A stretch of 64,000 nucleotides of DNA from Proteromonas lacertae (taxonomy: Eukaryota; Sar; Bigyra; Opalinata; Proteromonadidae): contig NGBS01000323.1 in assembly GCA_002245135.1 (NCBI GenBank), positions 1-64,000 on the forward strand. The letters are read 5' to 3'. Below the pieces are notes generated by a model, which was not told where the DNA came from, searched no databases, and saw only the letters and a program-made list of their open reading frames with translations. Below, piece by piece: positions 11,941 through 59,234 of this stretch (the first letter of the stretch is position 1; each line of letters begins with the position of its first letter). The translations under genes and the position numbers were made by a program.

Positions 11941-12733
11941 TTAAGCTAGAATTAACTCTTCAACATCAAGTTGCAGTATATCACACTCACAACCTAACAA
12001 AGAGCCAACACTTGGATTTGTTCTTCCTAAGTCACTATGAACAAACTCCTTGATATAAGTTCCTCCTGAACTTAATAAATGAAGAATGAAAAAGTGTGGA
12101 TTAATGTACTCTGTTTTCATTGAATAAATCATCTTCTTTCTCTCCATTAAAGATCTCCTATGTAATACTCGAACTGGAGTTTGTTGTAATACTTCCAAGT
12201 TAATAACATTATCTAATTTCTCATATAATAACTCTGGTGTCACTTTTTCTGAAGATTGAACAACACAAACATAGGATTTCTTCTTAGCCTCTGCATTCTG
12301 TTGTAACATATCAAAAGTTGATTTTTCACACACTCTCAAACTATTTACACCAACTCTATCATCTTGATTAATCTCATCTTCTAATTGTTTAAGTTCTTCT
12401 TCTGTAAGAGTTTCTCTTTTAGAATCTAATAATTCAACAACAAAAGGTCTTCCTTTACCTAACATTCTAACATTCACATCTTCTCTACCAGCTGCATGGA
12501 ATTTGGATGATTCTGCATGAAACATACTTTCAGTTGGTTTTGAGATAATTTCAGATAGACTTCCAACTATTCTACAAGTTGAATTATCAATTAACCATGG
12601 TGTTTGACTTAGATATCTATCGAATTTATTATAGAAACCATATAAATAAATTGAACTTCGTTTTATTGTACATGTTACTGTTGGATAAGTTGATAAAGAT
12701 GAAGGAGGAGACTAAATATATAAAATATTAACA

Positions 12734-12775
<42 letters not shown>

Positions 12776-13497
12776 CAATGAATGTAGATGGAGGTGTATC
12801 ATAATTAAATTCCAATAATTTATTTGTTAAACTTCTAATACTACTATCTAATGAACTTCTTTCTTTCTCCTTTCTAGATCTTTTCCTAGCTTTTTCAGAA
12901 TCGATTGGATTTAATAACCATTTATAATCTTCGTTAGTTTCTGGATGAGATATATCATAATATAATTCAAAATTTGATTCTCTCATATATTCTGAGGATG
13001 GTAAATACTCTTTTACAATTGGAGTTAAAATGTATTTTAATATATCTTTTAATTCTAGTATTGTTAATTCAGTAGGTTTTTTAAGTATTAAATTTGATTT
13101 GTACAGATTATAAAGAGATGAAAATTGACGAACAATGTATGAATTTGGGAAATGAAAACTCATTGAAAATTTACTTACTTCATAATTTGTTTCTTTGCAT
13201 AACTTTTCTAAAGCTTCTCTGAATATTCCTTTTGAAATAAATGCATCTTGTAATAGACCTAAACAGATTGGACATATTTTATCAAACTTCACTTCTTCAT
13301 TGATATATTTAGATATTGCATTAGCAATATCACTTTCTGATGATCTAGTAATTATAATTTCAATAATACAAGTAAAATTGTTGATTAACACAATTAGACA
13401 ATCTTAATATGCACCTTGGACAACATCCAAATGAATTAAGTTGTGATATACTTTGTGAAGAAAGTGTCAAGCTAGATGGGTTTAATTCGATTGACAT
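11941..13497 (-). CDS. PUS10: tRNA pseudouridine synthase Pus10
   Basis: Exons 13400-13497, 12777-13344 and 11941-12711 join over introns of 55 and 65 nt (the second a long TA run) into 478 residues. The N-terminus carries the CCPRCILRL and CPICLG pairs expected for the zinc-binding, THUMP-like half of Pus10. The C-terminal half has SQTPWLID and GREDVNVRMLGKGRPF, the active-site block of this family, then HRRSLMERKKMIY and the closing GGTYIKEFVHSDLGRTNPS. Pus10 makes pseudouridine at positions 54 and 55 of the tRNA T arm in archaea and many eukaryotes. Family identity is firm. The second intron's donor was chosen because it alone restores the cysteine motif in frame. Confidence 0.93.
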
Positions 13498-13560
13498 TAT
13501 AAATATATTCGTTTTAATAATTCAATTTAAATTTAAATTTTGTTGATTATATCTGTAAAT

Positions 13561-13861
13561 ATGAATTCAATTCAAATTCCAGAAGTATTTTCTTATATAA
13601 TATATTGTGTAGGAGGTGTATACACAAGAGGTAGTTAATGTAATTGAAGATATTCAAAATGTATGTAATTTAGTGTTTATATGATGTAGGGAATTAAAAG
13701 ATTAGTTGAAAATTTAAATTCTCTGAATAATAATCTTGAATATACATGCGAATTAGTATTCTTTAAAAAAATATTGTAATTAGGGACAAGAGACTGAGAA
13801 ATTAGCAAATATATGGTCATGCATAGGAAAACAAACACCTGAAGAAGATAATAATAAGTAG
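13561..13861 (+). CDS. DAD1: DAD1-like subunit of the DASH/Dam1 kinetochore complex
   Basis: Four phase-0 exons (13561-13584, 13613-13660, 13690-13755, 13784-13861) are split by introns of 28, 29 and 28 nt (GTAT...TAG) and give a 71-residue protein. No single exon is long enough for an ORF finder. The core LVENLNSLNNNLEYTC followed by GQETEKLANIWSCIG matches the DAD1 signature: a NLNSLNxNLE helix, then a Gly-Glu-Lys turn and a Leu-Trp-Ser helix. DAD1 helps build the microtubule ring that couples kinetochores to spindle ends, and small size is usual for it. The gene sits between the divergent PUS10 start and the GST gene's 3' end. Assignment rests on motif recall, so a profile search would settle it. 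Confidence 0.8.
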
Positions 13862-13923
13862 ATAGTATGTTTATAATTTAAATTTTTATTTAATTGATTA
13901 AATGTGATGTTTTTACCATACTT

Positions 13924-14598
13924 TTAATCACTAAATGGTGTAGTACCAACTACAGTTTTTATCTCTGTTATATTTGAACATTCTTTCAACCATCTCTTTA
14001 TATTTGGGTATAAATCACTTTCTTCTTTAGACAAAGTGTTACTAAATAAAGGCAAACAAACACAGAATAATGGCACATCTGCAAATGTGAAATTATCTCC
14101 TAACATGAATTTCTTCCCTTCCAATTCATTGTTTATAATATCTACATGTTGTTTTATATCTTTTAAGGTTGTTTCATAATTTGGAGATTCTTTTGGTAAT
14201 TTCAACAATGAATTATAGGGTCTTTCTAATTCATTCATTGAAAAATCAGTCCACTATTCATTATGAAATATAAAAGAATAATTATACTCTATCAATCAAA
14301 CCTTGATCAAATAATGTATTTCCTAAATATTTTTTAGCTGAATGGTTTGTTTGAAATATCCTGAAAATAGCATTAGACTGAGTAAACTTGTAATAACCCA
14401 TTGATAATATTGGTGCCTAATTAAATCTTGCATATATTATACCTGCTCATTTTCACCAACATTCTTAGTTCTAGGAATAAAATGAGTTAATTGAGCTGCA
14501 ATTGACACCTAGGAACAATATTACTTCATTGACTATACTTTATTCGATTCAATGCTCTTATTTGCAATTAAATTAAACATACCATTGACTGTATCCAT
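13924..14598 (-). CDS. GST-fold protein resembling the N-terminal half of eEF1B-gamma
   Basis: Exons 14539-14598, 14443-14508, 14288-14416 and 13924-14253 join in phase 0 over introns of 30, 26 and 34 nt to 194 residues. The N-terminal thioredoxin-like part includes SIAAQLTHFIPRT and the turn ending APILSMG, followed by FTQSNAIFRIF (the usual ESNAI position). The helical part has KKFMLGDNFTFADVPLFCV, the conserved GST N-capping and hydrophobic staple region. The order resembles eEF1B-gamma or GST modules of tRNA synthetases. The C-terminal eEF1G domain is absent, so it may be a stand-alone scaffold or a small GST. An active-site Ser/Tyr is not evident. Confidence 0.75.
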
Positions 14599-14684: not shown

Positions 14685-15062
14685 ATGGTATGTGATAAAT
14701 GCGCTAAGAAACTACAAAAAATAATTGTACCAGATACTTGGAAAGAAGGTTCTATGAATAATACAGGTGGTGAAAAAGCTGGTATAGAATTATATTTTAT
14801 TCTATTAAATTAGGAGGTAAAGGAAAAGGCAGAGAAGTTAATCCTAACCAATTACTATCGAAGTTAAAGAATAATAGGTAAGATTATCGAGATATAGTTC
14901 TCTAGATTTACACAAGATGGTTCCCATATATGTAGAATATGTAAGAAACCTGTTCATCAATGGGCTAATTATTGTAACGATTGTGCTTATAAAAAAGGAA
15001 TTTGTGCTAGATGTGGTAAAAAAGTGGTAGACACTTCAGAATATAGAATGAGTAGTAGATAG
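14685..15062 (+). CDS. CRIPT: CRIPT, cysteine-rich minor-spliceosome/PDZ-binding protein
   Basis: Exons 14685-14781, 14814-14877 and 14906-15062 join over introns of 32 and 28 nt to 105 residues, the normal CRIPT length. It opens MVCDKCAKKL and IVPDTWKEGS, both near-invariant in CRIPT, and continues CRICKKPVHQ, YCNDCAYKKGICARCGKKV, giving the full set of CxxC pairs that bind zinc. The upstream in-frame ATG at 14616 would add 23 residues that the family lacks, so I chose 14685. CRIPT is known as a zinc protein that binds PDZ domains in animals and is linked to the minor spliceosome. In a genome with 30-nt introns the splicing link is worth noting, but nothing here proves it. Confidence 0.93.
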
Positions 15063-15259
15063 GAGTAAAGTATTTCTAAGTATTTATTATATTTGTTTTT
15101 TTGATTATGATTTGTTTGTTTTATCTCTTACCATAATAAACAATAACAATAACAATGTAATAATAATATAATAGTAAGCAATTTTACAGGAGATTTAAAC
15201 GAAAAAAATGTATAAAAGAAAGAATTGTTGTTTTTTTAGTTTGAATTAAAATTAGGTCT

Positions 15260-18028
15260 TTAATTGGGAGTAGGAGAAATTGGTCTAGAATTAGCCATCG
15301 GCTCATTAGTTGCTTTAAACGCTTTATATTCATCACTTTCTAAGAATTGATCTAACAATTCACTCTCCATCTTTGTCTCAGCTACTTTTTCAGCTGGTAA
15401 GAATAGAGCAGGGTTTGGATCTTTGTATGATGATTCTATTTTTGTATAAACATCTTCAGGTAAATCAATATGCATCTTACAATTCTTTAATATATATTTA
15501 TGAACAATTTTATTTGATTTGACTTTCATAAAACCAGAATCTGGAATTAATTTATATTCTTCAGCTTCAATCCAAAAGAAGAATAGATTTATTTCTATAT
15601 ATATATATATAATATATACGTTTAACTCTAGTGCAAAATAATTTGAAATAATTTGAACAAATAGGATGATGTAAAACATCTTGAATATGTTGAACAACTA
15701 ATACTTTCTTAATCTCTTCTTCCATCTTAACTTCTTTAACTCTATCTTTCTTTTGTTTCTTATCAGAATTCACTACTTTAATCATCTCAGCACATTGATC
15801 ACTCATTACAAATGATGGAAATAGTGAATCTTTCATCAATGCATATACTTCATCAATTGCATGTTGGAACATTCGTGGAGATGGCTCTTTTTTCGCTAAA
15901 CTTGCTTCTGTAAATGCTAAGGCTTCTTTTGATACAGTAACTGGCTGTCTTGCTGTTTTAGCTAAGTATCTTTGATATATTTTCTTACCTCTTGCTGCTG
16001 ACAATTGTGATTTTGGTATTCTCATAAAATCTTCTACATCTATCCAGAAGTATAAACAAGCATCATAAAACTGTGCTGATAAATATAATTCAAAGTATTT
16101 ACAGTAATGCGATGTATGTAAAATATCATCGAAACTGATTGGACATTCAAATTTTACATCTGTTAAATAGGTATCTTCAATATCATGAGCATTTTCTAAG
16201 AATTTCAAATATGTTGGATTTTGTAAGAAATTGAAATATTCTTCATTTTCCAATACTTGTACTACTTCATTCACTATATTATCGAACAAAGTTGGTTTAC
16301 ATTCTGAAGCTAATCCAATCTTAGATCTTACAGATTTCTTCAAAGTTTCATCGATATTTAATTCTTGTTTACTCCCTCTTTGAATGTATTTAACATATAT
16401 TTTTCTAGCTCTTCCCATTATATAATCCTTCCTTGTCATTGGAATAGCTTTATACTCTTGCACTTCTTTATAAAAACGTATTAAATTACGATTTAATGGA
16501 TTCTGTATTGATCCATCAAACATTTGACACAAGGTTTGATTTAATAAGATTTCTGTAATAGTATGGACAGCTTTGGATGTAATATTTGTTAATAATTGAA
16601 AATCTTGATGACTGGCTCTTCTATTCTTCTTATTTTCAGCTTCTTCTTCATATTGGTGGTATTCCTCTGACTCTAAAAATGCATCTAAATAATTCTCCAT
16701 CAAAAATGTTAATGACATATCACTTGATAGATTAAATACATCATATGGATATTGACCTTCTCCATCCCATGTTCCTAGTCGATCTACTACTGCTTTTGCT
16801 ATATTTGAATCATCAATAACTTGTTGCAATGCTCCTTTACGAATGTATTTATCATATATCTTAGATGCTTGTGTTAAGAAGAATTCTCTACTAAGTGCTT
16901 TTTCTCTTTCAATCATTGCTTCATCTTCTACTATTTCACCTGGAAGATTGGTTTTTTGATTTTCTATTGATTTATATATTAATAATTACATATATATTTA
17001 TATACCATCTCTCATTGCACTAAACATATTATAAAATTCATTCACATCCAAATAAAACAGCAAATGTTCCATTCCACCATTTATTCTCTGTATATATTGC
17101 TTAAAATAAAAACATTTTCTACTACTATTTAATATTTTTTCCATCATTGCTTTTCTTCTTCCTACTTCTATCTTTTGTGTGGTTGTAACAAACATATCCA
17201 TATTGGAAAATGCTGTTTTTTGCTCAATTTCTAATCTTGTTTCTTTTTCTAAAATGACTTTGAATTTTTCAAATACTTCGTTGTGTAATAACTCGAAACA
17301 TTGTTTTTGGAAGTAATTGAATATTGTATCTGATGGAATTTCACATGTGTATAATTCTTGCTGTAATTCTTCTTTTTCTAGTTGTTCTGATTGAATCTAA
17401 TATTGTTATAATTGATAATATATACTGGAGTACTTGCAAACTGTGAAAAATATCGATTATATATCTCATTTGCTCTTTTTGCTCTAAATTCAGATTTTGG
17501 TAAAGATGAATAATCTTCTACTTCAATCCAAAATAAAAGACAATTCAGTAGTAAGTTTTGACTGCCTTCTACTTTATCTTTAGACTTTTCAAAGATATCA
17601 GTTAAATATTTCCTGAATCTCTTACAAGCTCTTGTATCCTATTATTTAAAATTATTTATTACAATGATACTTTTAATATTATATCCAATGAAGAATCCAT
17701 AACCATTGAGCTTCTTAATGCACTTCCTCTCTTAGAAGTGACAGCTGCTCCTAGTACAGCTTCTTCATCATCACAATGTTTTATTGCCTTTTTTAAATTC
17801 TCTTCTACTGAGGATTTAGAATCACTATCTTCACTATTATCTCCATCAGATTCTGGGCCTCCAAATTTGTGTTTCGTTTTATTAATTCTACTTTTTGGAC
17901 GTGGTACAGCTTTTGGTACTGTTGGTTCTTGACCTATCAAACACATTATTTTAAGAAATACTTGGCGCTGGTTGCACTTGATTTTTCTTAGGTGGTGGTG
18001 CTTTTGGTTTACTCTCTTTACTTCCCAT
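15260..18028 (-). CDS. Protein with five tandem RGS domains
   Basis: Six exons (17962-18028, 17671-17933, 17426-17638, 17006-17396, 15620-16963, 15260-15594) join over introns of 28, 32, 29, 42 and 25 nt to 870 residues. The start MGSKESKPK fits an N-myristoylation site. An acidic, Ser-rich linker follows, then five RGS-type helical bundles. They are recognised by repeated FWIEVEDYSSLP, FYLDVNEFYNM, FYKEVQEYKAIP, FWIDVEDFMRIP and FWIEAEEYKLIP motifs, each followed by an Arg/Lys-rich KIYxKYI helix. RGS domains speed GTP hydrolysis by G-alpha subunits, and multi-RGS proteins such as animal RGS22 are found in ciliated cells. Not every copy need be catalytic. The 25-nt intron (15595-15619) is among the shortest in the window. 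Confidence 0.87.
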
Positions 18029-31885: not shown

Positions 31886-34800
31886 ATGGGTTGCAATAAA
31901 TCTAAGCAGGAACCATCTCAAGTAATAGAAAAAACAGAAAATAACTCTCAATTCCCTCCTCCACCTCCTCCGCCAATACAGACGAATACTTCATATGTCA
32001 AACCAGAAGAAAAATTGAGGACACCACCATTGACTCCCCAACAAACTCCAAAGAATCCTGCATTACCTCCAATAAAAAGATCCCCTGACAAAGCATCACC
32101 TCTTAGTAAAACAATAAATGTTTCACAACCTTTTAGACTACCAGCTCCAAGGACTAATAATAAATTAAACATATCAACAGATGGATTAAATACATCAGAT
32201 CCAGAGATGAAAGCTTCTCCAGAACGTGATTCTGCAATGTCAACAGTAAGTAGTAAACCTACAAGAGCAAGTTTCTATAAAACACCAAGAATACCAAAGA
32301 CACCAGCCTTTCACAAGAAAGATGCATTGAGTGCATCAATGATTTCATTTGATTTTTCAGATACACCTTCTCATTCAATGTATTCTGCAGCTCCTATTGT
32401 CAGAAGACCATCATTAGCTGAAATGGGACAAAATAACAATAATTTAAGCAGACGTAAAGTGGTATTACAAGTACTACAATCTGACTATGTAACTCCTACA
32501 TCCAAATTCTATGCAAAAACAGATGATCAAATTGAATTAATTCGAAAAGCTATAGAGGAGAGTGTAATATTCAAAAACTACGCAGAGACTCAGAAAGAGG
32601 CAATAATACAGAATATGTACAGAGAAGAATATAAAGAATGCGATGTAATCATGAAAGAAGGAGATGTAACTTCAGATTTTGTAGTGATAGAGAAAGGTGA
32701 AGTTGATATTCAATCATCAACAGAAGAGGAAGTATATGATATGTCAGAAGGTGGATTTTATGGTGATAGTATAATAATAATATTATTATTATTATAGTTT
32801 TTCTATTAAATGGTCAAGTATCACCTTTTACTGTAGTTGCAACAACAAATGTGATTATATGGAAAGCAAATGGTGCTGAATTTGAAGATACAAATATTAC
32901 ATCATTATCGTATATATATATAATAAATAATAATCTTATAAATAGTGTACAAAATCAAACAACAAAAGAGTTACTCCAGTCTGTTCCATTATTATCACAT
33001 CTAACAGAATATCAATTATTCAGTTTAATTCCATTAATACAAGAAGTTAATTATAAGAATGATGAATATATTATACACAAAGGTGATAAAGGAGATGCAT
33101 TTTATATAGTCAAAAAAGGAGTTGCTGTTTGTTATGATCATTTGACAAAGAATAGTCCAGCAACTAAAACAAGATCAATAGAATCTAAAGATAAGAATAA
33201 AGAGAATTTGGTTGAAATAAGAGAACTACATGAGAAGGAATATTTTGGTGAGATTGCATTGTTGAATGATATTTGTAGGACTTTAGATGTAATAGCGAAA
33301 GGTGAAACTACTTGTTGGATGATTAAAAGAGATGATTTTGATAGACATGTTGGTTCATTAAAGAATATATTAGATGTATATATACATATATTATTATTAT
33401 TATTTTATAGCATAATATGAAAGTAAGATTTGCAGATTCTACACCACTGTTATGCGATTTAACAATTGAAGAAAAAGACAAATTAGCAGAGAAACTACAA
33501 ATTGAGAAATTTGAAAGTGAAAAACCAATTGTGGTTCAAGGAGAAAGTGGAGATAAATTCTATATAATAGAAGAAGGAAGAGTGAAATGTACACAAAAAC
33601 GAAAGAAAGAAAAAGCCAATAAAGATGATAAAGAAGAAGAAGAAGAAGAAATATTTTTACGTAATTTGAATGTTGGTGATTATTTTGGTGAAAAAGCATT
33701 ATTTGAGAGTGAAGTAAGAAGTGCAACAGTTACTGCAATAACTAATGTAACTTTATTATCTATTACACGTGAAGTATTTATCGAAATATTAGGTCCATGG
33801 GAGAAAATAGAGGAAAGGAAAATAATTGAGAATTGTATAAAACAATCTCCTTTTTTTGCAAGATTATTATTGGCTGAGAATCAAATATTGTATTTAATTG
33901 ATTGTGGTAAAATAGTTGAGTTTAATGATAAAGATGTGATAATTAAAAGTGATAGTAAGCCAAGTATATATATATATATATTTATTCAAATTTTATTATA
34001 TTTTCTAAATAGCATCATTTTATATAATATTAGATGGAACAGTAAACTCAACTGAATTATACAAACTACCAATAGTTTTAACTCGAAATAGTTATTTTGG
34101 TGAAGAAGCAATCATCTCTGGAACAAAAGAAACCAAAAAATATACAGCTAAAGGTCATGTTAAGTGTTTTATGTTGGATTCTGAGAAGTTTATTGATATT
34201 ATTCAACCATTATTATATAAATTAGAAGATTTAGTACCATGTGGAATATTAGGAATTGGTGGATTTGCATTGGTTCAGAAAGTACATCCAAAAGATAAAT
34301 TAACTAGTTTTTATGCATTGAAAAGTGTTCATAAAAGTAAACTAAGAACAGCAGCGTATATTTATTTATAATAATAATAATAATTTATAGAGATAAAAGA
34401 AATATAAAAAATGAAAGAATGATATCATTAAAACTAAACCATCCATTTTTAATAAGATTAGTAGCAACTTATCAATCAGAGACTGATTTATATTTCCTAC
34501 AAGAATTTATATCAGGTGGTGATATTAGAACATTAATGTCAACTAGAAAGAATTCAAGATTAAATGATAGAGAAGCACAGTTTTATATTTCCTGTGCAGC
34601 AATTGCATTACATTATATGCATATGAAACATGTCGTTTATAGAGATTTAAAACCAGAGAATATACTAATCACTAAGACAGGTTATATTAAATTAACTGAT
34701 TTTGGTAATGCAAAAGAAGTGATGCAGAGGACTTTTACATTGTGTGGAACACCTGATTATATGGCTCCAGAAGTATATATATATAAATTACATTTTTTTT

Positions 34801-34923
34801 CTTATTTATAGTTATGGTTGAATAAAGGTCATGGTATTGAAGTTGATATGTGGGCTTTAGGTGTGTTATTATATGAATTTTTAGATGGAAATACTCCTTT
34901 TGATTTACGAGAAGGAGGACAAG

Positions 34924-34957
<34 letters not shown>

Positions 34958-35359
34958 ATTGATTATTATTATTATTATTATTATATTAGCCTGAACAAAT
35001 ATCTAGAATAGTAAGTTGTCAATATGAAATACCAGTTCATTTTTCATTATATTCATCTGATTTAATACAGAATCTACTACAAGTAGATGTGAATAATAGA
35101 ATAGGAGTTGGTCAAATGGGTTGGGATAAATTACAATTACATAATTACTTTAAAGGAATTAACTTTGATGAAATTGAACAACAGAAAGTCAAACCTCCAT
35201 TTGTATTTGTTTTATTAATATAATTATTGTGTATAGATTCCTACTGCTGTATATATGAGTAACTGTTGTCAAGACTTTAACTCATTGAGTGAGAAAGAAG
35301 TAAAAGAAATAACTCAATTGAATGAAATGACAGAAAGACTTTGGATTGATGGGTTTTGA
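31886..35359 (+). CDS. cGMP-dependent protein kinase (PKG) with four cyclic-nucleotide domains
   Basis: Nine exons joined over eight introns (32769-32797, 32910-32945, 33376-33410, 33964-34012, 34356-34390, 34773-34811, 34923-34989, 35203-35236) give 1,049 residues. MGCNKSK suits myristoylation plus palmitoylation, and a ~200-residue Pro/Ser-rich region follows. Four cyclic-nucleotide domains come next. Phosphate cassettes of the second ([17 protein letters not shown]) and third ([17 protein letters not shown]) keep Glu and Arg. The first ([17 protein letters not shown]) and fourth ([17 protein letters not shown]) lack the Arg. The AGC kinase domain is complete: [47 protein letters not shown]. 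Four such domains are typical of alveolate-type PKGs. A further exon after 35350 is possible but its donor is weak, so I stop at 35359. Confidence 0.92.
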
Positions 35360-36009: not shown

Positions 36010-39000
36010 ATGAAATTGGTATTGGTATTGTTAGCTTTGATAAGTATAGAATATATTCTACACTATAATAGGTACGATATCTGGCGAATGTGAACTTAAC
36101 AGTGGTATAATTGAATTATCAACCCAGGAAAACTCACGTTTTCCTATATTTCCACATGAAAATGACATTTCCTCATGTGTAATAAATCCAAGATTACCTG
36201 ATGGTTTATCTCTCTCACCAAACTGTGTAATAACAGGTAGATCAACTCGAAGTTTAGAGAAACGAGAATTTGAAGTGAAATATGTCTATAATGGATATTC
36301 ATTTAAAGATAATGTGAATATTGTAGTTTATGGAATATTGAATAGTTGTAGTTATGGAGTAAATGATGATGGAATAATAATTTCAGGTGGTAGTGCATTT
36401 ACAATCGCTCCTCCTCAGTGTAACTCTCCAATAAAGATATGTAGTTGTGATGGTTTACCTGCTGGAGTGAAAATCTCTGAAAATGGAAGAATCTATACTG
36501 AAAGACCAACATCAGTCAGTGATAAAGCTACATACAACATAAAGTGTAGTAATGGAATAAATGAAGTGACTATTCCCTTAAAACTGAGTATAGATGTTTC
36601 AAAAACAACAACAAAGCCACTTCAATACTTTCATTATCCAACCAATGAATATAACTTCTTTCTCAATCGAGCTGGTTCAATAATCCCTAGTTATTTAGGT
36701 AATATAAAATCAGGAGGTTGTTCAATAAACCCAACTTCATTAGGTACTGGATTATCATTTATTGCTGATACATGTGAAATTAAAGGAACATATACTTCAG
36801 GTGGTTCAAATAAAAACTTTACAGTAACTGCCATATCTACTGATGATCTAAGTAAAAGTGTATTTACAATAGAAATAAGGTATATAAGTGATAGTCATGG
36901 AAATTATCAATTTGGTTGGTTAATCAAATTTTATCGATTTAAAAATGCAAAATGTGATACTAGATATTCTAGTCAAACAGGTGAAAAAGAATTAATATAT
37001 GTAGGAGTAAGGGAGTATATAAATTACACTAAAGGTAGTAGTCTATGGCCAGAATATGGTTGGCATTTAGAACAACAATCATCCTTAAGTTCAACTGGTA
37101 TATTACATGGTAATCAACAAAGAATATTTTGTGGATACAGTGGTTCTACGCAAGTTTATTATGGTACAACAAGTAATTGGGAAAGACCTGAAAATACTGA
37201 TAATAATTTAGCGGACTGTAAATATCCTACTCAAACATTAATTGGTTATTTTACTAGCCGAGTTGAAATGCATCAACATAGAGGAGTAGGTTTAGATAAT
37301 CAATTTAGATTTGATATTCAAGTTGGTAAGCCAAGTGGAGAAGGTACTGCAGGAACAGGTGAATTTATTGGTCCTTCTGTAGTTGCTCATTTATATTTAG
37401 GATTTTTTGAATATTCGTTAATGAAAGCAATATATCCAGCTCATACTAAAATTCCTATTAATAAACCAGTATTACAAGCTTGGATTAGTGCTCGAACAGT
37501 TGATAGTTATGAAATAGAAGGTGATTTACCACTTGGATTGAAATTTGATCCAACAACAGGATATATAAGTGGTTATGTAGATGAAATAATGAAATCTCGA
37601 AATTATACAATAACTTTAAGAGGAAGAGATACAAGTGAAAAAGGAAATAATGCTGCATTTGTATATACATGTGAAATTGAAATGTCAATAGAAGAATATA
37701 AAAGTCTAGAAAGTGAAATTGAATGTGATTCAAATAAGATAATTGGTTTTACAGGTGAAACCATAACTCCAATCAGATGTTCAAGTAAAAATTCAATTGA
37801 AATGTTATATCATTCAACTGATTTACCCTTAGGATTAAGTCTAAATGAAGATGATGGTGAAATAAGTGGAACTCCATTAGAAGAAGTATTTGGTCATATC
37901 TCCACCATCTATGGTTATACAATCAATGGAGTTAGTTCAATAGAGATTGAATTTACTTTATATGGATGTAAAAAATCATCTGATTTAATTGAATTATCAA
38001 CAGAAACTGAATCAAATAAACCAATAATAATAAGCAAAAAACCTATATCTTCATGTGTAATAAATCCAAGATTACCTGATGGTTTATCTCTCTCACCAAA
38101 CTGTGTAATAACAGGTAGATCAACTCGAAGTTTAGAGAAACGAGAATTTGAAGTGAAATATGTCTATAATGGATATTCATTTAAAGATAATGTGAATATT
38201 GTAGTTTATGGAATATTGAATAGTTGTAGTTATGGAGTAAATGATGATGGAATAATAATTTCAGGTGGTAGTGTATTTACAATCGCTCCTCCTCAGTGTA
38301 ACTCTCCAATAAAGATATGTAGTTGTGATGATTTACCTGCTGGAGTGAAAATATCTGAAAATGGAAGAATCTATACTGAAAGACCAACATCAGTCAGTGA
38401 TAAAGCTACATACAACATAAAGTGTAGTGATGGAATAAATGAAGTGACTATTCCCTTAAAACTGAGTATAGATGTTTCAAAGACTGTAGAAAAACCACTT
38501 CAATACTTTCACTATCCAACCAATGAATATAGTTTCTTTCTCAATCGAGCTGGTTCAATAAAACCAACATTATCTTAGGTAATATCAAAATCTAATGGTT
38601 GTAGTCTATAGCATCATCAAATGATTTGTATAGTGGAGTTAAACTTGATGCTAATACATGTGAAATTAGTGGTATAGCTGCTACATTTCCAGAAGGCATA
38701 TCAAGAATTCATAATGTAACAGTGACTGCCATATCAGCTGATAATCTTAGTAAAAGTGTATTTACAATAGAAATACGATATATTAGTGATAGGTCATGGA
38801 AATTATCAATTTGGTTGGTTAATTCAATTTTATCGATTTAAAAATGCAAATTGTGTTGATAAATATTTAGATCAAACAGGTGAAAAAGAATTAATATATG
38901 TAGGAGTAAGAGAATATATAAACTATACTACTGGAAGTAGTTTATGGCCCGAATATGGTTGGCATTTAGAACAACAATCCTCCTTAAGTTCAATTGGTTT

Positions 39001-42000
39001 TTATCATGATAAACAAAGATCTTATTTTGGATATAGTGGTTCAACAATTGTATATTATGTTGGTAAATATCAAAATGGTAATGATAATCCTGGTAATTGG
39101 GAAAGAAATGGTAATAATGGTTGTAGTATTCCAACATCTGATTTAATTGGTGATTTATATAAAAGAACAGAAATGCATCAACATAGAGGAGTAGGTGAAG
39201 ATAATCAATTTAGATTTGAAATACAAGTAGGAAGTTCATCTGCTATAGCAGGAACAGGTGAATTTATTGGTCCTTCTGTAGTTGCTCATTTATATTTAGG
39301 ATTTTTTGAATATTCGTTAATGAAAGCAATATATCCAGCTCATACTAAAATTCCTATTAATAAACCAGTATTACAAGCTTGGATTAGTGCTCGAACAGTT
39401 GATAGTTATGAAATAGAAGGTGATTTACCACTTGGATTAAAATTTGATCCAACAACAGGATATATAAGTGGTTATGTAGATGAAATAATGAAATCTCGAA
39501 ATTATACAATAACTTTAAGAGGAAGAGATACAAGTGAAAAAGGAAATAATGCTGCATTTGTATATACATGTGAAATTGAAATGTCAATAGAAGAATATAA
39601 AAGTCCAGAAAGTGAAATTGAATGTGATTCAAATAAGATAATTGGTTTTACAGGTGAAACCATAACTCCAATCAGATGTTCAAGTAAAAATTCAATTGAA
39701 ATGTTATATCATTCAACTGATTTACCCTTAGGATTAAGTCTAAATGAAGATGATGGTGAAATAAGTGGAACTCCATTAGAAGAAGTATTTGGTCATATCT
39801 CCACCATCTATGGTTATACAATCAATGGAGTTAGTTCAATAGAGATTGAATTTACTTTATATGGATGTAAAAAATCATCTGATTTAATTGAATTATCAAG
39901 TGGTGATTATTCCAGTTTGTTAATTATGACATGTAAAAATAGAATATCTTCATGCTATATAAATCCTCAACTACCTGATGGATTGTTTTTGTCACAGAAC
40001 TGTTTATTAAGTGGAAAACCAAGTAGAACATTTGATAAAAGAGGATATGAATTAGAGTATGTCTATAATGGATATTCATTTAAAGATAATGTGAATATTG
40101 TAGTTTATGGAATATTGAATAGTTGTAGTTATGGAGTAAATGATGATGGAATAATAATTTCAGGTGGTAGTGCATTTACAATCGCTCCTCCTCAGTGTAA
40201 CTCTCCAATAAAGATATGTAGTTGTGATGGTTTACCTGCTGGAGTGAAAATCTCTGAAAATGGAAGAATCTATACTGAAAGACCAACATCAGTCAGTGAT
40301 AAAGCTACATACAACATAAAGTGTAGTAATGGAATAAATGAAGTGACTATTCCCTTAAAACTGAGTATAGATGTTTCAAAGACTGTAGAAAAACCACTTC
40401 AATACTTTCACTATCCAACCAATGATTTTCCATTTTTTCGTAGGCAGATTAGAATCAATAGTTCCTAGTTATCTAGGTAATATAAAATCAGGAGGTTGTT
40501 CAATAAACCCAACTTCATTAGGTACTGGATTATCATTTATTGCTGATACATGTGAAATTAAAGGAACATATACTTCAGGTGGTTCAAATAAAAACTTTAC
40601 AGTAACTGCCATATCAGCTGATGATCTAAGTAAAAGTGTATTTACAATAGAAATAAGGATATATAAGTGATAGTCATGGAAATTATCAATATGGTTGGTT
40701 AATCAAATTTTATCGATTCAAAACTGCTAGTTGTACTGTATCATATTCTAGTCAAACAGGTGAAAAAGAATTAATATATGTAGGAGTAAGAGAATATATA
40801 AACTATACTACTGGAAGTAGTTTATGGCCCGAATATGGTTGGCATTTAGAACAACAATCCTCCTTAAGTTCAATTGGTTTTTATCATGATAAACAAAGAT
40901 CTTATTTTGGATATAGTGGTTCAACAATTGTATATTATGTTGGTAAATATCAAAATGGTAATGATAATCCTGGTAATTGGGAAAGAAATGGTAATAATGG
41001 TTGTAGTATTCCAACATCTGATTTAATTGGTGATTTATATAAAAGAACAGAAATGCATCAACATAGAGGAGTAGGTGAAGATAATCAATTTAGATTTGAA
41101 ATACAAGTAGGAAGTTCATCTGCTATAGCAGGAACAGGTGAATTTATTGGTCCTTCTGTAGTTGCTCATTTATATTTAGGATTTTTTGAATATTCGTTAA
41201 TGAAAGCAATATATCCAGCTCATACTAAAATTCCTATTAATAAACCAGTATTACAAGCTTGGATTAGTGCTCGAACAGTTGATAGTTATGAAATAGAAGG
41301 TGATTTACCACTTGGATTAAAATTTGATCCAACAACAGGATATATAAGTGGTTATGTAGATGAAATAATGAAATCTCGAAATTATACAATAACTTTAAGA
41401 GGAAGAGATACAAGTGAAAAAGGAAATAATGCTGCATTTGTATATACATGTGAAATTGAAATGTCAATAGAAGAATATAAAAGTCCAGAAAGTGAAATTG
41501 AATGTGATTCAAATAAGATAATTGGTTTTACAGGTGAAACCATAACTCCAATCAGATGTTCAAGTAAAAATTCAATTGAAATGTTATATCATTCAACTGA
41601 TTTACCCTTAGGATTAAGTCTAAATGAAGATGATGGTGAAATAAGTGGAACTCCATTAGAAGAAGTATTTGGTCATATCTCCACCATCTATGGTTATACA
41701 ATCAATGGAGTTAGTTCAATAGAGATTGAATTTGTTATTGAAAGGTCTTGTCATTATTATGCATTTTATTTTAGTTACATTCTTGAAAGTGAAGGTACAG
41801 AATTTATTGTTAAACAAGATGATGATATATTATTTAATAGTAGTAATAATGGAGTAATAATAAAAGAAAATGTGAATATAATATGTGCAAAATGTGAAAC
41901 AGATTTGAAATTAATCATTCATAGTGATGCATTAATAGGAGGAAAGTTTATACTTCGTCGTAATAATGATTTGGTATTATATTCAGGAAAAGTTGAAGAT

Positions 42001-45000
42001 ATAATAGATAATAGAGAAATAGAAATAACATTTCCTAAAGAAGATCAGATTCCAATTCTTAATTATCCAGTTATGACTGATTTAATAGTTGGATTTGAGT
42101 ATTATATTGGTCCAACAGTGACAAATGGTGGATTTGTATTTGATGTTGATAAGAATTGTGAAGAAATTGAATTTGATCGAGAAACTGGTGCATTTTATGG
42201 ATTAATTGAATCTGTATTTGATGAAACATTTATAGTAACAGCAACTAATTATAATGGAAAAAGTACATCCACTTCAGTTACAATAACTTCATCAAAATGT
42301 GAAAATGACAAACAATTGTTCAAATTACATGTAGTAATTGGTCAAGCTGATAATAGACAAGCATCAATTAATATTAAGAAGAGATCTGATGATCTTACAC
42401 TATTTAAATTCGACAATATAAAAACAGAGACATTTGATAAAAGATTTTGTCAATTACAAGGTGAATATACAGCATTATATTCATTTACATCTTCATCATC
42501 AAGTATGGAAATAGTATTAGAAGATATAGATGTAACAACAAAATTACTTCCAGGAAGTGATTATGGTCAAGATTTCTTTGTTTATCGAATATACAGTGGT
42601 ATTGGTAATTGGTATTATACTTCCACATATCAATCTGATTGGATTACTACAACTGTCTTTGATTCATGGACAGCCAAACCAATGGGTGAATTTGAAGAAG
42701 TAAATGAAATAGTGAGATATTATAAATATCCATTTACAGTTCCAAATACTTATTTAAGTACAGCAATAGTATTGTCATTGACATATGCAGGAGGTATAGC
42801 TGTTTATATAAATGAACATTTTCGTTTATATTAATAATTTACCTGATGGTTATACACATGATACTCCAAGTAGTTCAGATACAACGCATACTATTCAAGT
42901 ACCAATAGTTACTGCTTACTTCAAAAGAGATGGAAGTGAAAATTATATTTCAATAGAAAGTCATTTCCAATCTTTAATGAGTGAAAAAGAAAAATTGATA
43001 GTTAATATTCAATATATGGGAATAAATCAATGTATGAATGCTCCAGGTGTAAATGATGTTACTATAACTGCATTTGCTAAAGAAGGTGAAACAGTATCAG
43101 ATGATAACCTTCGAGAAGTAGTTTTACCTGATACTTATAAAAATGAAATATATAGTGTTAATGGTGGTTTTAATTATAATTATGGTAGTTATCCTGCTTA
43201 TGAAAATGCTTGGTATAAATATAAATATAATTATCCAATAATGATTTCAAAATATAATTTTGTATCAACTGGTGAAGCAGATAATTTAATTCGATTTGCT
43301 ATAAGTTGGGATGTATTAGGATCAAATGATGATAAAACATGGAAAGTATTACACTCAGTGAGAAGAAGTGCTCAACCAACATTAGATGAAAATAGGCCAT
43401 ATTATATACCAAATTTAGAAGATCAATATAAATATTATATGTTCAATATAACAGCTAGAGGTGATGATAATGAAGTATTAGCAGATCAATTAAGAACAGG
43501 AGGTATAATACCATCAATATGTAATTATCCACAAACATGTGATGATATTCCAATGGGAAGTGAAAGTTATTTCATGTGTCCAGAAGGTCAAGAATCAAAT
43601 CGTAAAACCGCTACTTCTGAACCAATAAGAATAGTAAGAGAATGTCAGAATGTGAAAGGTGTTGCTACTATTCAACCTGATAATTATGGTGGAAATACTT
43701 GTTCTAAACAGCATATAATATTTGATGCTTCTTCAAATAAAGTAACAGGAATAATAGGAAAAGAAGTTCCAACTTATAGATCCTATTTATTTGTTGATCG
43801 AAATACAACTACAACTATAACATCTGATCCAGAATTACCAGATGGAGTGAAAATAGATCAATTGAGTGGAAGAATCTACGGTATAGCCAATGAAGTTAGA
43901 GAAGAAAAATCATATAAAATTACTGTAACTAATGAAGCTTATCCAGACGGAAGAAAGACAGTATCAAAAACAATTACTTTAAAAATATTAACTCAATATT
44001 GTGATACTGATGATATTTGGCCTAAAACTGAATTTAATCAAACAGCTTCATTAGAATGTGGAGAAGGCTGTGGAGGAAATCGAACCAGAGAATGTGTATT
44101 AACAAATGGAGATGCTGTTTGGAAAGAAGCTGATTATAGTGGATGTGTATATCCCAAATCAGTAGAATATAGTAATTATACAAGTAATTGCTTAGCTTTA
44201 GGAATAATAAAAGCTACAGTTATATCAATGGAAGATAAGAATTTAATATTTGAATTTGTGGATAAATCAGAAATAGTAAAAGAATTAACAATCGATCAAA
44301 CAAATGGAGAAATAAGTGGAACTTTATCATCCAAATATGTAAATACAACGAATGAAATAAAAGTGAAAGTAACAGGAAATTATACAATAATCACTTCATT
44401 CTTCTTAACCATTGATGTAAATCTGATGATTAAATATAAAGCATCTGAATATAAAGGTACAAAAGATTTATATTTTGAAAGTGATGAAGCTGAAATATCA
44501 TCTTGTGATCCTCATTTATCAATAGGACATGATCCTACTTCATTAGGATTATCATTTAATTCAACAAATGGTAAAATATCTGGAATTCCAACCAGATATT
44601 TCGAAGAATCATTTACAATAACATTATCAAGTGGAGATTTACCTCCGTCATTATTTGTAATGAAAATAATAATAGAAGAATTTGAATATGATATTCATGA
44701 TGAAATACATAAAAGTGATAAAATATCAATATCTCCAAAAGGTATAGCTGTTAATTCAAAATTTTCATTTAAAGAAGAAAGTATGAAAACATTATTGAAT
44801 GGTATAAGTATTTATTTGGATGAAAATGATGGAAGATTATACACAAAAGAGAATGAGAAAATTAGTGATGTATTAAATGAAACAAGTATAACAATAGTTC
44901 AATCATTAGATGGAAAATCAATCGAAACAACATTCAGTTTAACAATATTAAGATATACATTCAATTATTTAGATGTAAAAGAAATATATCATAAAGGTGA

Positions 45001-54466: not shown

Positions 54467-57400
54467 TTAACTCTCAGTTCCTGGAATATATAAAGTCTTA
54501 AATCTAGCAGCATTCTGTTGTAAGAAGTGTAATAATTTACTTTGAATCAAACCAGTGGTAGATGGAGACAAGCAATTACCTCTAAATCCAATCAAAGCTC
54601 TTCTTCTCTTAGCTAATTCGAATTCATCCTCTTCACTCTGTACTCCTTCAATCATATCAGCCAATATTTCTTGCAAACCTTCTTCATCCTTCACTACACT
54701 ATGTACTTCCATCATAAAGTCTCTGAATCTATCATGATATAGAACATCAGCCCATTCCTCTTCTAAGAAGTCCAATAAATCAGGAATTCTACCTTCATTA
54801 TATGTAGCAACTAAACTATTCACATAACTTTGATGAACTCCAATAAGTTGTTCTAAATGAGAATAATTAACTTGTTTATCACTCAAGCATGTAATTGCAG
54901 CTATAATATCATCTTTATCTAAACTGATCTTACAATATCTCGTTCTACCAGGAACAGCAGTAACAATTTCAGCTAATGGAGTTTCACCTTCTTTCAACTT
55001 ACTAGCGAAGAAGTAATTCAAATTGAATGGAACATTACATCTTACTGTTCGAGGTAAATTAAACACTGGTGGTTCATGAGTTTCTTCATTTACATCTGAA
55101 TAATCAGCGACTGGATCAATAAAGTATAATAATGATTGTGATAAACAATATCCAGCTTCTAAACTATTATATAACTCCATTCTTCCACCATGTCTGTATC
55201 TTCTACTCCATTTAGCTATTGTACCAGCTGCAAATATATTCTTATCTGTTGTTCTGAAGAATGAATCAACCACTAATCTACCATCATATACTAAACCTGT
55301 ATTGTTAATAGCAGAAAAGATATAAGGATCTACATCATGTTGATCAGCGCAAACTAATAAGTTACATTCTATTACATCTTCACTTTTACTACCATCATCA
55401 TTGAATACTGTGAAAACAGCACCTTCTAGATTACCTCTTCCATCGATCTTTAATTCCTTTAATTTGTGATGGGCAATGACTTTAACTCCTCCCATTTGGA
55501 ACTGATCATTTAATGTGTCTTGAACACAGCCATTATCACCAATTAGAGTATTTAATGTCTATATAAAAAATAATATATATATATATACCTTTGACATAAC
55601 CAAACTAATACTTCCTCTTAAAGCACCTGAATTCTGTGCAATACAATAATTCACACATGTTAATGCTTCCATTGAACTACCATATACTACTACATAACCA
55701 CCATTATCTATTATATCATTAATATATTCACCAGCTTTACCTACACTCTCTCTACCACCAGCAAATAAGACTTGAGGTGGAATTGGACCAACTTTTTCTA
55801 GAAATTTCTTAGTACTGTCTTGTAAACCAGGTGTTAATACCAATGAATCATACGGAATAACTTTCTCATTATCTAATATTGCACATTTATTTTCTCTATC
55901 TAAATCTACTACATAGTTATTGACTATCTTTACTCTGCTTTCAAATCCTTTTAAATGTAAATCTTGTGATGTATAACATGAATCTCTTTGTGCAATACTA
56001 TCAACATCTTGATAAGGTAATCCTAATGGTGAAACTAATATAATATTGGTGAAGAATAAGTATGGAATAAATATTAGATTTTCTATTGCACTTAAACCGC
56101 AATCTGAAGCACCGACTACTACAATTCTGTGGTTTAATTTGATTCTTGGTTCTGTGAGATATTTGTATGGTAAAATAGATAATGCAAATATTGAATTTAG
56201 TGTAAGATTTTCCATTGATTTTCTAGATCTAGGCTTGACTTGAATAAACTCTTCAATAATAGTAGAGAATATTCTATCAGGGTAGATTCTATAATATAAT
56301 AATTCCTTCTGATAATATCTCATTACTTCTTGCAAACAGAATCTACTAGCTGGTATAAACAATGGATTAATAACAAAATGTAAAACAGTAGCTTGATTCT
56401 TTGATAAATACTCTTTTATATCACAATAATCTTCAACAGCAAAATTGTTACAAGTCCAAGTAACTAACTGACGAGTAGTGTATTCTCTTGTACAAATAGT
56501 CAAACCTACGATTTGTTCTTGGTAGATAAACGCAAATGCAGCTTGTTCAGGATTATTTTCTATTGGTTCATTGTATATTTGTAAAACATGTTGTAATGAC
56601 TGCAATATTTCATCTTTATTATTTACATTACTTAATATATTCTTTATTCTAGGAACATCATCTAATACAATTTGTCTAAGTGTCAAATCTCTCATTGCAC
56701 TGAGTGTATTTCTATGTATTATATATAAATTATGACTGAATGAATGATCTACTTTATTAGGGACTCTAATCATTGATTGTAATAGTGGGAATGGTCTTGC
56801 TGATGGTGGCATTGTTAATATTAAATAATCCATATTAGGGAAACATTCAAAGGCAGAATCTAAGAAATCAATTGATCTACTTTGGAAGCTTTCATCTACG
56901 CAGAATAATGTAACTCCAAATGCATTGGGTCTGGTTGGAATTGTGACTGGAGTTGCTTTCAATATTTCTATTTCTCGAACTTTCTTTTTGTAGTTTGTAT
57001 CAAATATTAATTTTTCCACTGCAGTGTAAACTGTATCAATTGTTCCAGTACCATCAACAACGGTAATTGGTAATCCATTTTCTATTTCTTCAATATGTTC
57101 TCGATATAATGATAATTGTACTGCCAATGTTGCTTCTGAATCTTCATCATTCATTTCACATCGATCAGATATCTCAGCTGGAGGTGGATTGAAGTCTTTA
57201 TGATATATTTCACCTGTAACTGTATCATATAATCTACCTTGCATGTGTTCTATTCCACAGGTTTCATCAGTTTCTATTAATATAACAAAAGTTGGAGTAT
57301 TTCCACTATCACATAACATTTTATAATCACTTACTGTTTTGATCATTCCATCTAAGATATAACCACTTTCATTAATATCAAATCCCTTTAATTTCTCAAT

Positions 57401-59234
57401 GGCTAATTTGATGAGTAGTTCGTGTGGGACTTTTTGACCACTTTGACTGAATTCTCTAATTGCTTGAACTTCTGGACATCTCATTGTATTGATTTGTTCC
57501 ATTAATATTTCTGGTGATATTATCTTATATCCATATCGCTTTGCTAATAATCTGGCTTGGGTTGTCAAACCTGAACAAGGAGGACCAATTAATGCGATTT
57601 TTTGACCACGGAAACTATTTTATATAATATAAATAGTGATATATACAAGGGATTTACTTTATAATCATATTCTTGATATAAATCTGCTAGTAATTTCTTA
57701 TTAATTTTCTGATTGTTTGGATCATCTTCGCTGAGTTGTGGCAATGCTTTGAAATTAAGACAATATCTAATATCTTCTTCTAAATTGCCATCATAATCAT
57801 ATAAATTTGGATTTCCTCCTTTCTCTGTTTCTGCTGCTTTTAATTGTCTTAAATATATATTCAATTTTTGGAAAAAACTTCTTACATCTGTTTCGTATAG
57901 TTTTTCTTCTTCATTTCCGGCATTTTTCTTATCTTTCTTACTTTCCTTCTTAGCTTCAGCTGCTGCATCATCTGGACAACATAATGCTAGAATAGTTGTG
58001 AAAATATGATATCTATCTTCCAATTCGCCATCTCTCATGTACCATTCATAGAATCGATCTAATATGATTCTATCATTTCTCTCAGCCAATAATGGTTGAT
58101 ACACTTTTTGAAAATCATTGAAAGTGATTTGATTGTCTTTTCCTAAATTCAAAGCACAAATCACATCCAAGCCAAGCTCGTTTGGTTGAACTTTTGTTGT
58201 ATATCCCCATTTCTCACCTTTGGCGTTTAAATATTTGTACAAACTATTATATAACTCCTTGGGCATTCCTTCTTCACGCTTCTTAGGGAAGTCCTTTTGG
58301 AATTCTTGCCAATTCTCTTCAATAATTTTTGTCCAATGAACTGGTTTAATTACTTCTTCTTTAATGATTTCCTATTCATATGTATAAATTATGATATAAT
58401 ATATACATCTAATTCTTTTACTAAATTATCATAAGGTTCTAATTGGAAAGACTCTTGTAATACCTTTAAATCAATTTCAGTGGATATTGCCATTATACCA
58501 ACTGCTACTTTTTTGGGATTTAATCCAACCAATACTTTGTTATTATCATCAACACCATAAATCACATCAGCCAAGAAGAAATCACCATAAATACTACGTA
58601 ATACTTCTGATTGACTTTCAAATATTGGTACTAAATCATCATGATCTTGAATTCTAGCTGGTCTGATTAATAAATTAGGAATTAAGGTTTCTCTTGGAAA
58701 TATGTATACTGATGGTTCTAAAGCAAGTTCTTCACTACCATCTTCTTGTGACATTATTTTTTTCTCTCTTTCTTCTTCTTCTTCTGTTAATGGTGGCAAT
58801 ATAAACATTGAAGATAATGGTTTATAAAGTAATACACCATCTGGCTTATATAACATGCATACATCAATTAATGGTAAGATACCAAAGGCAGATGTTAATA
58901 TTTGTTTTAATGCTTCTGTATCATACAATTCTGCAGCCACAAAATATGATAACCATAAAGTAGACGATACCATAAATTCAGGATATGCATAATGACTATC
59001 AAACCATCCTACGAAATTATCATTGTATCTTTCAGGAGGTTCATTTTTGAATGCAGCGAATGCAACTAGATCGTCCTCAGCAGTGACAGCTACAACTGAC
59101 AATATACTGTGTTCCAGAATCGATAGAACGGGATTATCACCAAACACAGCTGAACTTTCTGCTCTCTGAGAATTGATTAACTTTTTAATATCGCTTAGAT
59201 CATTAACATCAGCTCTTCTCACAAGCAAATCCAT
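54467..59234 (-). CDS. CFAP61: CFAP61-like radial-spoke protein with embedded adenylate-kinase domain
   Basis: Exons 58407-59234, 57647-58371, 55589-57614 and 54467-55558 join over introns of 35, 32 and 30 nt to 1,556 residues. The N-terminal ~275 residues match the CFAP61 GNAT-like region (VRRADVNDLSDIKKLI, LLIRPARIQDHDDLVPIF). An EF-hand-like helical stretch follows. Next is an adenylate-kinase fold with P-loop ALIGPPCSGLTTQARLLAK and lid-like RLYDTVTGEIYH. The C-terminal half holds the Rossmann FAD/NAD(P)-like fold (HRIVVVGASDCGLSAIENL, VVVYGSSMEALTCVNY) and AINNTGLVYDGRLVVDSFF, typical of CFAP61. CFAP61 sits at the base of radial spoke 3 in the calmodulin- and spoke-associated complex. 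To my knowledge animal CFAP61 is shorter (about 1,240 residues) and lacks the kinase. Confidence 0.85.

Follow-up and report, generated by a model that had tools for sequence, protein, structure and literature searches.

A probable DAD1 gene divided by three micro-introns accompanies other Dam1/DASH subunits in a stramenopile close to Blastocystis

The plus strand between 13561 and 13861 of the window (the whole 64,000-nucleotide stretch of DNA that was analyzed) carries four short exons separated by three introns (Table 1), as a sequence-only reading had proposed. Its intron starts (13585, 13661, and 13756), the intron lengths of 28, 29, and 28 nt, and the 71-residue product were all found to be exact. 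Once joined, the exons amount to 216 bases and encode these 71 residues up to a TAG stop. The first intron has a tandem acceptor, ending at 13612 or 13615, which gives a protein of 71 or 70 residues with an equal Dad1 score. No second copy of the locus was found in the assembly by DNA search, and a search of the protein collection gave no candidate DAD1 homologue with three words in common. The same reading had placed the gene beside CFAP61- and PKG-type genes, and here it was mistaken: the CFAP61 gene (54467-59234) and the PKG-like gene (31886-35359) lie 18 to 45 kb away, and the adjoining genes are PUS10 and a glutathione S-transferase-like gene, both on the minus strand, and CRIPT. Strong family matches were obtained for both PUS10 and CRIPT after splicing of their gene-finder models.

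Table 1. Features of the DAD1 locus and of the adjoining genes, in window coordinates
Feature	Position	Strand	Evidence and remarks
DAD1 exon 1	13561..13584	+	Start codon at 13561; splice joining, gene finder
Intron 1, 28 nt, GTAT..GTAG	13585..13612	+	Alternative acceptor at 13615 drops one Glu
DAD1 exon 2	13613..13660	+	Splice joining, gene finder
Intron 2, 29 nt, GTAT..GTAG	13661..13689	+	Sequence, gene finder
DAD1 exon 3, encodes GIKRLVENLNSLNNNLEYTCEL	13690..13755	+	Splice joining, Pfam, gene finder
Intron 3, 28 nt, GTAT..TTAG	13756..13783	+	Sequence, gene finder
DAD1 exon 4, encodes GQETEKLANIWSCIG...	13784..13861	+	TAG stop at 13859-13861; splice joining, Pfam, gene finder
PUS10, divergent	11941..13497	-	Start at 13497, 63 bases from the DAD1 start codon; introns of 25 and 65 nt
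Part of glutathione S-transferase-like gene, convergent	13924..14238	-	Gene finder, family search
CRIPT, 3 exons, introns of 32 and 28 nt	14685..15062	+	Gene finder, family search

The identical four exons are called by a small exon-intron gene finder whose training drew on the window outside 13501-13900; an earlier round had the DAD1 locus in its training set and is not independent. The ab initio coding score of the locus is modest, being equaled by 6 of 500 dinucleotide shuffles, and none of the 500 gives a protein of at least 71 residues. Under rules that permit up to three GTA..AG introns of 24 to 40 nt within the region 13541-13880, 22 proteins of at least 45 residues are possible, and the claimed DAD1 protein, tied with its 70-residue form, has a BLOSUM62 score of 70 when compared with two segments of fungal Dad1. 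Given the same splicing freedom, the highest score was 43 among 746 other tiles from both strands of the window and 35 among 300 dinucleotide shuffles, and the DAD1 score was reached in neither set (0/746 and 0/300); the shuffles are a soft control because the median shuffle permitted no protein of at least 45 residues. Among the introns predicted in the window, 40 of 56 are 24 to 43 nt long, and 35 of these 40 begin with GTAT and 37 finish with TAG. The resemblance of the DAD1 introns to these others is partly circular because the same gene finder predicted them, and raw counts of GTA..TAG spacings in the window were uninformative.

In a profile search, the spliced protein scores 35.1 bits against DASH_Dad1 (PF08649), above the Pfam gathering cutoff of 31 (E = 1.5e-8), a similarity that bears out the DAD1-like identity first put forward from the letters of the DNA. 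The match spans residues 17 to 58, corresponding to profile positions 8 to 49 of 55. Three families are listed at an E value of ≤1, with DASH_Duo1 being the only other DASH family among them (E = 0.001, below its cutoff) and PDC10_C the third (E = 0.049). When the protein was searched against the sequences of solved structures, the best two matches were the Dad1 chains of 8q84 (E = 0.021) and 6cfz (E = 0.03), which we take to be complexes of yeast and Chaetomium; both are weak matches that scarcely outrank the next two, a designed coiled coil (E = 0.05) and Cry6Aa (E = 0.056). As controls, 20 of the 30 listed window open reading frames, including one of 2077 residues, matched no DASH family at an E value of ≤0.001, and seven predicted non-DASH proteins matched none at an E value of ≤0.1. 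The Dad1 domain is common to the protein and to the fungal DAD1 chains of 8q84 and 6cfz, with LNSLNNNLE and LANIW here aligning with LNGLNISLE and VSDLW there, whereas the solved fungal chains are 94 and 92 residues long compared to 71 residues here and, unlike fungal DAD1, the gene is cut by three micro-introns.

A genome-wide six-frame search with PF08649 to an E value of 10 returned four places, none of them at the DAD1 locus; the gene at 13561-13861 is thus hidden from a scan of open reading frames, just as had been predicted. The four places have E values of 0.3 to 0.6 and none was adopted as DAD1. Two of them (L001 and L004) gave, after splicing, near-identical 254-residue proteins that by eye are coiled coils, and these were dropped.

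Seven of the ten DASH families (DAD1, DAD2, DAM1, DUO1, DAD4, SPC34, and ASK1) and, of the three Ska proteins, SKA1 were sought in six frames in the 50.2-Mb genome. Four of the seven DASH families sought are present, namely DAD1 itself, DAM1, ASK1, and DAD2, all above their Pfam cutoffs. DAM1 exons on contigs C254 and C560 score 40.8 and 40.6 bits, and the spliced DAM1 protein scores 38.1 bits; ASK1 scores 37.7 bits by exon and 35.4 bits spliced (L043, one of three six-frame places). DAD2 (L005) has an E value of only 0.135 when searched by exon; its spliced protein scores 38.9 bits, the cutoff being 26.9. NDC80 was also found, its spliced protein matching Ndc80_HEC at 91.2 bits and NDC80_loop at 35.2 bits. 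A genome search proposed along with the original reading therefore yielded DAM1 and DAD2, but DUO1, SPC34, DAD4, and SKA1 were not detected in six frames.

The places set aside in these searches were of several kinds. Five places were returned for DAM1, of which L013 and L014 were kept; L015 (22.5 bits) has two internal stops and no same-strand gene, and L016, inside a predicted protein of another kind, and L017, in no predicted protein, were set aside. The remaining eight of the nine DAD2 places fall in longer frames of 141 to 2164 residues, and two of these eight lie in the window's own 2085-residue frame, at 16.4 to 16.5 bits. None of the nine DUO1 places in the genome was convincing among those examined: the best one (25.6 bits, 0.2 over the cutoff) is part of a long protein with many exons that looks by eye like a dynein heavy chain, and L019, L020, and L023 to L025 lie inside other predicted proteins. 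For DAD4 and SPC34, the genome gave one six-frame place each, in long predicted proteins, and nothing convincing. Because the six-frame search missed DAD1 too, the non-detection of DUO1, DAD4, and SPC34 is weak evidence of absence. The best SKA1 (PF07160) match in the six-frame search of the genome reaches 17.2 bits against a cutoff of 29.6, a search that an intron-split SKA1 could escape; two of its three places overlap a dynein-like gene and the protein at the third is by eye partly coiled coil.

The two DAM1 loci on C254 and C560 are identical at 2955 of 2991 bases and are probably alleles or a recent duplication. Similar pairs of loci on different contigs were also seen for C147/C503, C694/C685, and C1127/C45, with identity measured for C254/C560 alone, and such pairs suggest unmerged alleles or recent duplications.

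The DAM1 model runs on in frame past a 38-nt intron into about 96 further residues (L014:1443-2212 on C560; L041 on C254). In Pfam, this C-terminal part has weak matches, mostly to winged-helix families and all below cutoff (E = 0.011 to 0.06), and among solved structures it weakly matches bacterial ArsR-type regulators (E = 0.003 to 0.007); SKA1 is absent from the families listed for the DAM1 protein at an E value of ≤1. In both copies, the gene model gives a single DAM1-winged-helix protein with the frame kept. Between the copies, 17 codons are changed (8 synonymously and 9 not) and none of 107 intron bases is, and the codon changes would be weak evidence of constraint at best. With the acceptor masked, the parse score drops from 46.0 to 39.7 and the DAM1 model falls into two genes; the lead of the fused parse over the divided one is 6.3 natural-log units. 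Within the predicted gene model, the fusion is favored but unproven. A rebuilt complex in which DAD1, DAD2, and ASK1 are conventional while DAM1 ends in a winged-helix domain is a tentative proposal that we hold to be rather doubtful. The winged helix is the type of fold by which Ska1 grips microtubules, and the tail of fungal DAM1 is disordered. If the proposal is true, the Dam1 ring here would carry, where fungal DAM1 has that disordered tail, a module that is Ska-like or contacts DNA.

To place the organism, we used its EF2, which is encoded by a single exon and has 848 residues. Among the matches listed, it is 97, 91, 78, and 77% identical to four assembled sequences, then 70 to 71% identical to a set of sequences, one of them from Blastocystis sp. 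Blastoise (70%), and about 65% identical to further named matches, among them a placidid stramenopile and Acanthamoeba; because these last two are both at about 65%, identity alone is a weak guide to lineage. In a maximum-likelihood tree built from the query and 21 of 120 listed matches (22 rows), the query groups with the four closest assembled sequences (100/99), and this group is joined to a six-row clade made up of one named Blastocystis and five further rows (100/98). The other named stramenopile rows fall outside the clade of Blastocystis and the query, and Acanthamoeba, Drosophila, and Dendrobium fall farther out. Judged by this one gene, the organism is placed beside Blastocystis within the stramenopiles. 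That grouping makes a ciliate, a metamonad, or a chytrid, none of which has a row in the tree, unlikely. CFAP61 is present in the window and the cell is therefore probably flagellated; a passage of PMC9656049 describes Blastocystis as lacking flagella. The organism is hence probably an opalinate, akin to Proteromonas, Karotomorpha, or Opalina.

The gene structure in the DNA, the profile membership, and the co-occurrence with DAM1, ASK1, DAD2, and NDC80 are the basis on which we regard 13561-13861 as very probably a functional DAD1 gene, encoding a small helical Dam1/DASH subunit in a stramenopile close to Blastocystis, probably an opalinate. From the sequence we infer splicing in vivo, the fold, assembly, ring formation, and a kinetochore role for DAD1. 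Its pre-mRNA would lose three micro-introns whose length and consensus are usual for the window. As its family membership indicates, the protein would most likely give helices to a helical-bundle arm together with DAD2, ASK1, DAM1, and other subunits. The Dam1 complex would then couple NDC80-bearing kinetochores to spindle microtubules, holding their shrinking ends, where animals use Ska. In yeast, the ring formed by this complex attaches chromosomes to the spindle fibers. The Ska complex has the same proposed job with NDC80, the tracking of depolymerizing microtubules, but is not homologous to the Dam1 complex.

The protein could instead belong to another class of DASH-related subunit, or it could be an ordinary short coiled coil that matches the Dad1 profile through its helical composition. 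DASH subunits are paralogues of one another, Duo1 of Dad1 included, and the protein does touch DASH_Duo1 with an E value of 0.001; moreover, generic coiled-coil proteins yield weak six-frame DASH matches, as with the 25.6 bits for Duo1 and the 16.4 to 16.5 bits for Dad2, and non-DASH coiled coils stand close behind the Dad1 chains in the solved-structure search. This reading nevertheless seems quite improbable to us, given that the protein passes its own Dad1 cutoff, with an E value of 1.5e-8 for Dad1 against 1e-3 for Duo1, that the 20 window frames scanned, including the 2077-residue one, show no DASH match at an E value of ≤0.001, and that the top two solved chains are both Dad1. A decaying DAD1 relic that has lost its expression deserves hardly any credence: although selection is not measurable when the DNA search finds no second copy in the assembly, every exon reads through in frame, each of the three introns is bounded by consensus sites, the stop codon is in place, and the models of those partner genes that were found are intact too.

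There is a small but real chance that the Dam1 complex is kept with its main job away from the kinetochore, such as on the microtubules of interphase, the flagella, or the cell cortex. A second role of the complex in fungal hyphal tip growth and an ancestral function that may differ are both raised in the main text of PMC9998035, whereas the presence of NDC80 and the undetected SKA1 fit the usual pattern of substitution at the kinetochore.

According to the main text of PMC9998035, Stramenopila has a near-complete Dam1 complex, the distribution of the complex is sparse, wide, and disputed between vertical loss and horizontal transfer, SPC19 is specific to fungi, and the Dam1 complex and Ska are anti-correlated. 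Dam1 present and Ska undetected here would fit the reported anti-correlation, the Ska side being a six-frame search of SKA1. Since Stramenopila has already been reported to have the complex, DAD1 in this genome extends the sampling and not the supergroup range and is expected in kind. The suggestion that such a copy would be informative about the spread of the complex therefore holds in part: it adds a new stramenopile data point but leaves the supergroup range given in the main text of PMC9998035 unchanged. That main text names neither Blastocystis nor opalinids, and in the literature searched, itself limited, there was no opalinate record of the Dam1 complex or of the kinetochore; an earlier record for Blastocystis or an opalinate may exist in the published species tables. 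With at least four subunits and NDC80, no detected SKA1, and a position near Blastocystis, the genome is an informative stramenopile point. A 71-residue subunit cut by 28-nt introns escaped a six-frame search, and therefore some of the absences published for micro-intron genomes may be annotation artifacts.

Several other genes of the window have features of their own. The predicted 1556-residue protein at 54467-59234 (minus strand) unites CFAP61 with an adenylate-kinase domain in the middle of the protein (residues about 523 to 727). The long predicted protein at 36010-42834 (plus strand) has several He_PIG (putative Ig) domains and, by eye, three long near-alike repeats; its model contains 13-nt introns and is unsure. 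At 15260-18028 (minus strand), a predicted protein of 870 residues contains an inner 449-residue open reading frame with three RGS stretches. The PKG-like kinase at 31886-35359 (plus strand) starts with MGC, presumably a possible myristoylation signal, and by eye has several cyclic-nucleotide-binding repeats ahead of its kinase domain, an arrangement that we take to be the one known from alveolates. Over both of its strands, the window contains 15 copies of TGTTTGTT, which we take to be the poly-A-site motif of Blastocystis; one of them, at 15113, lies about 50 bases past the CRIPT stop.
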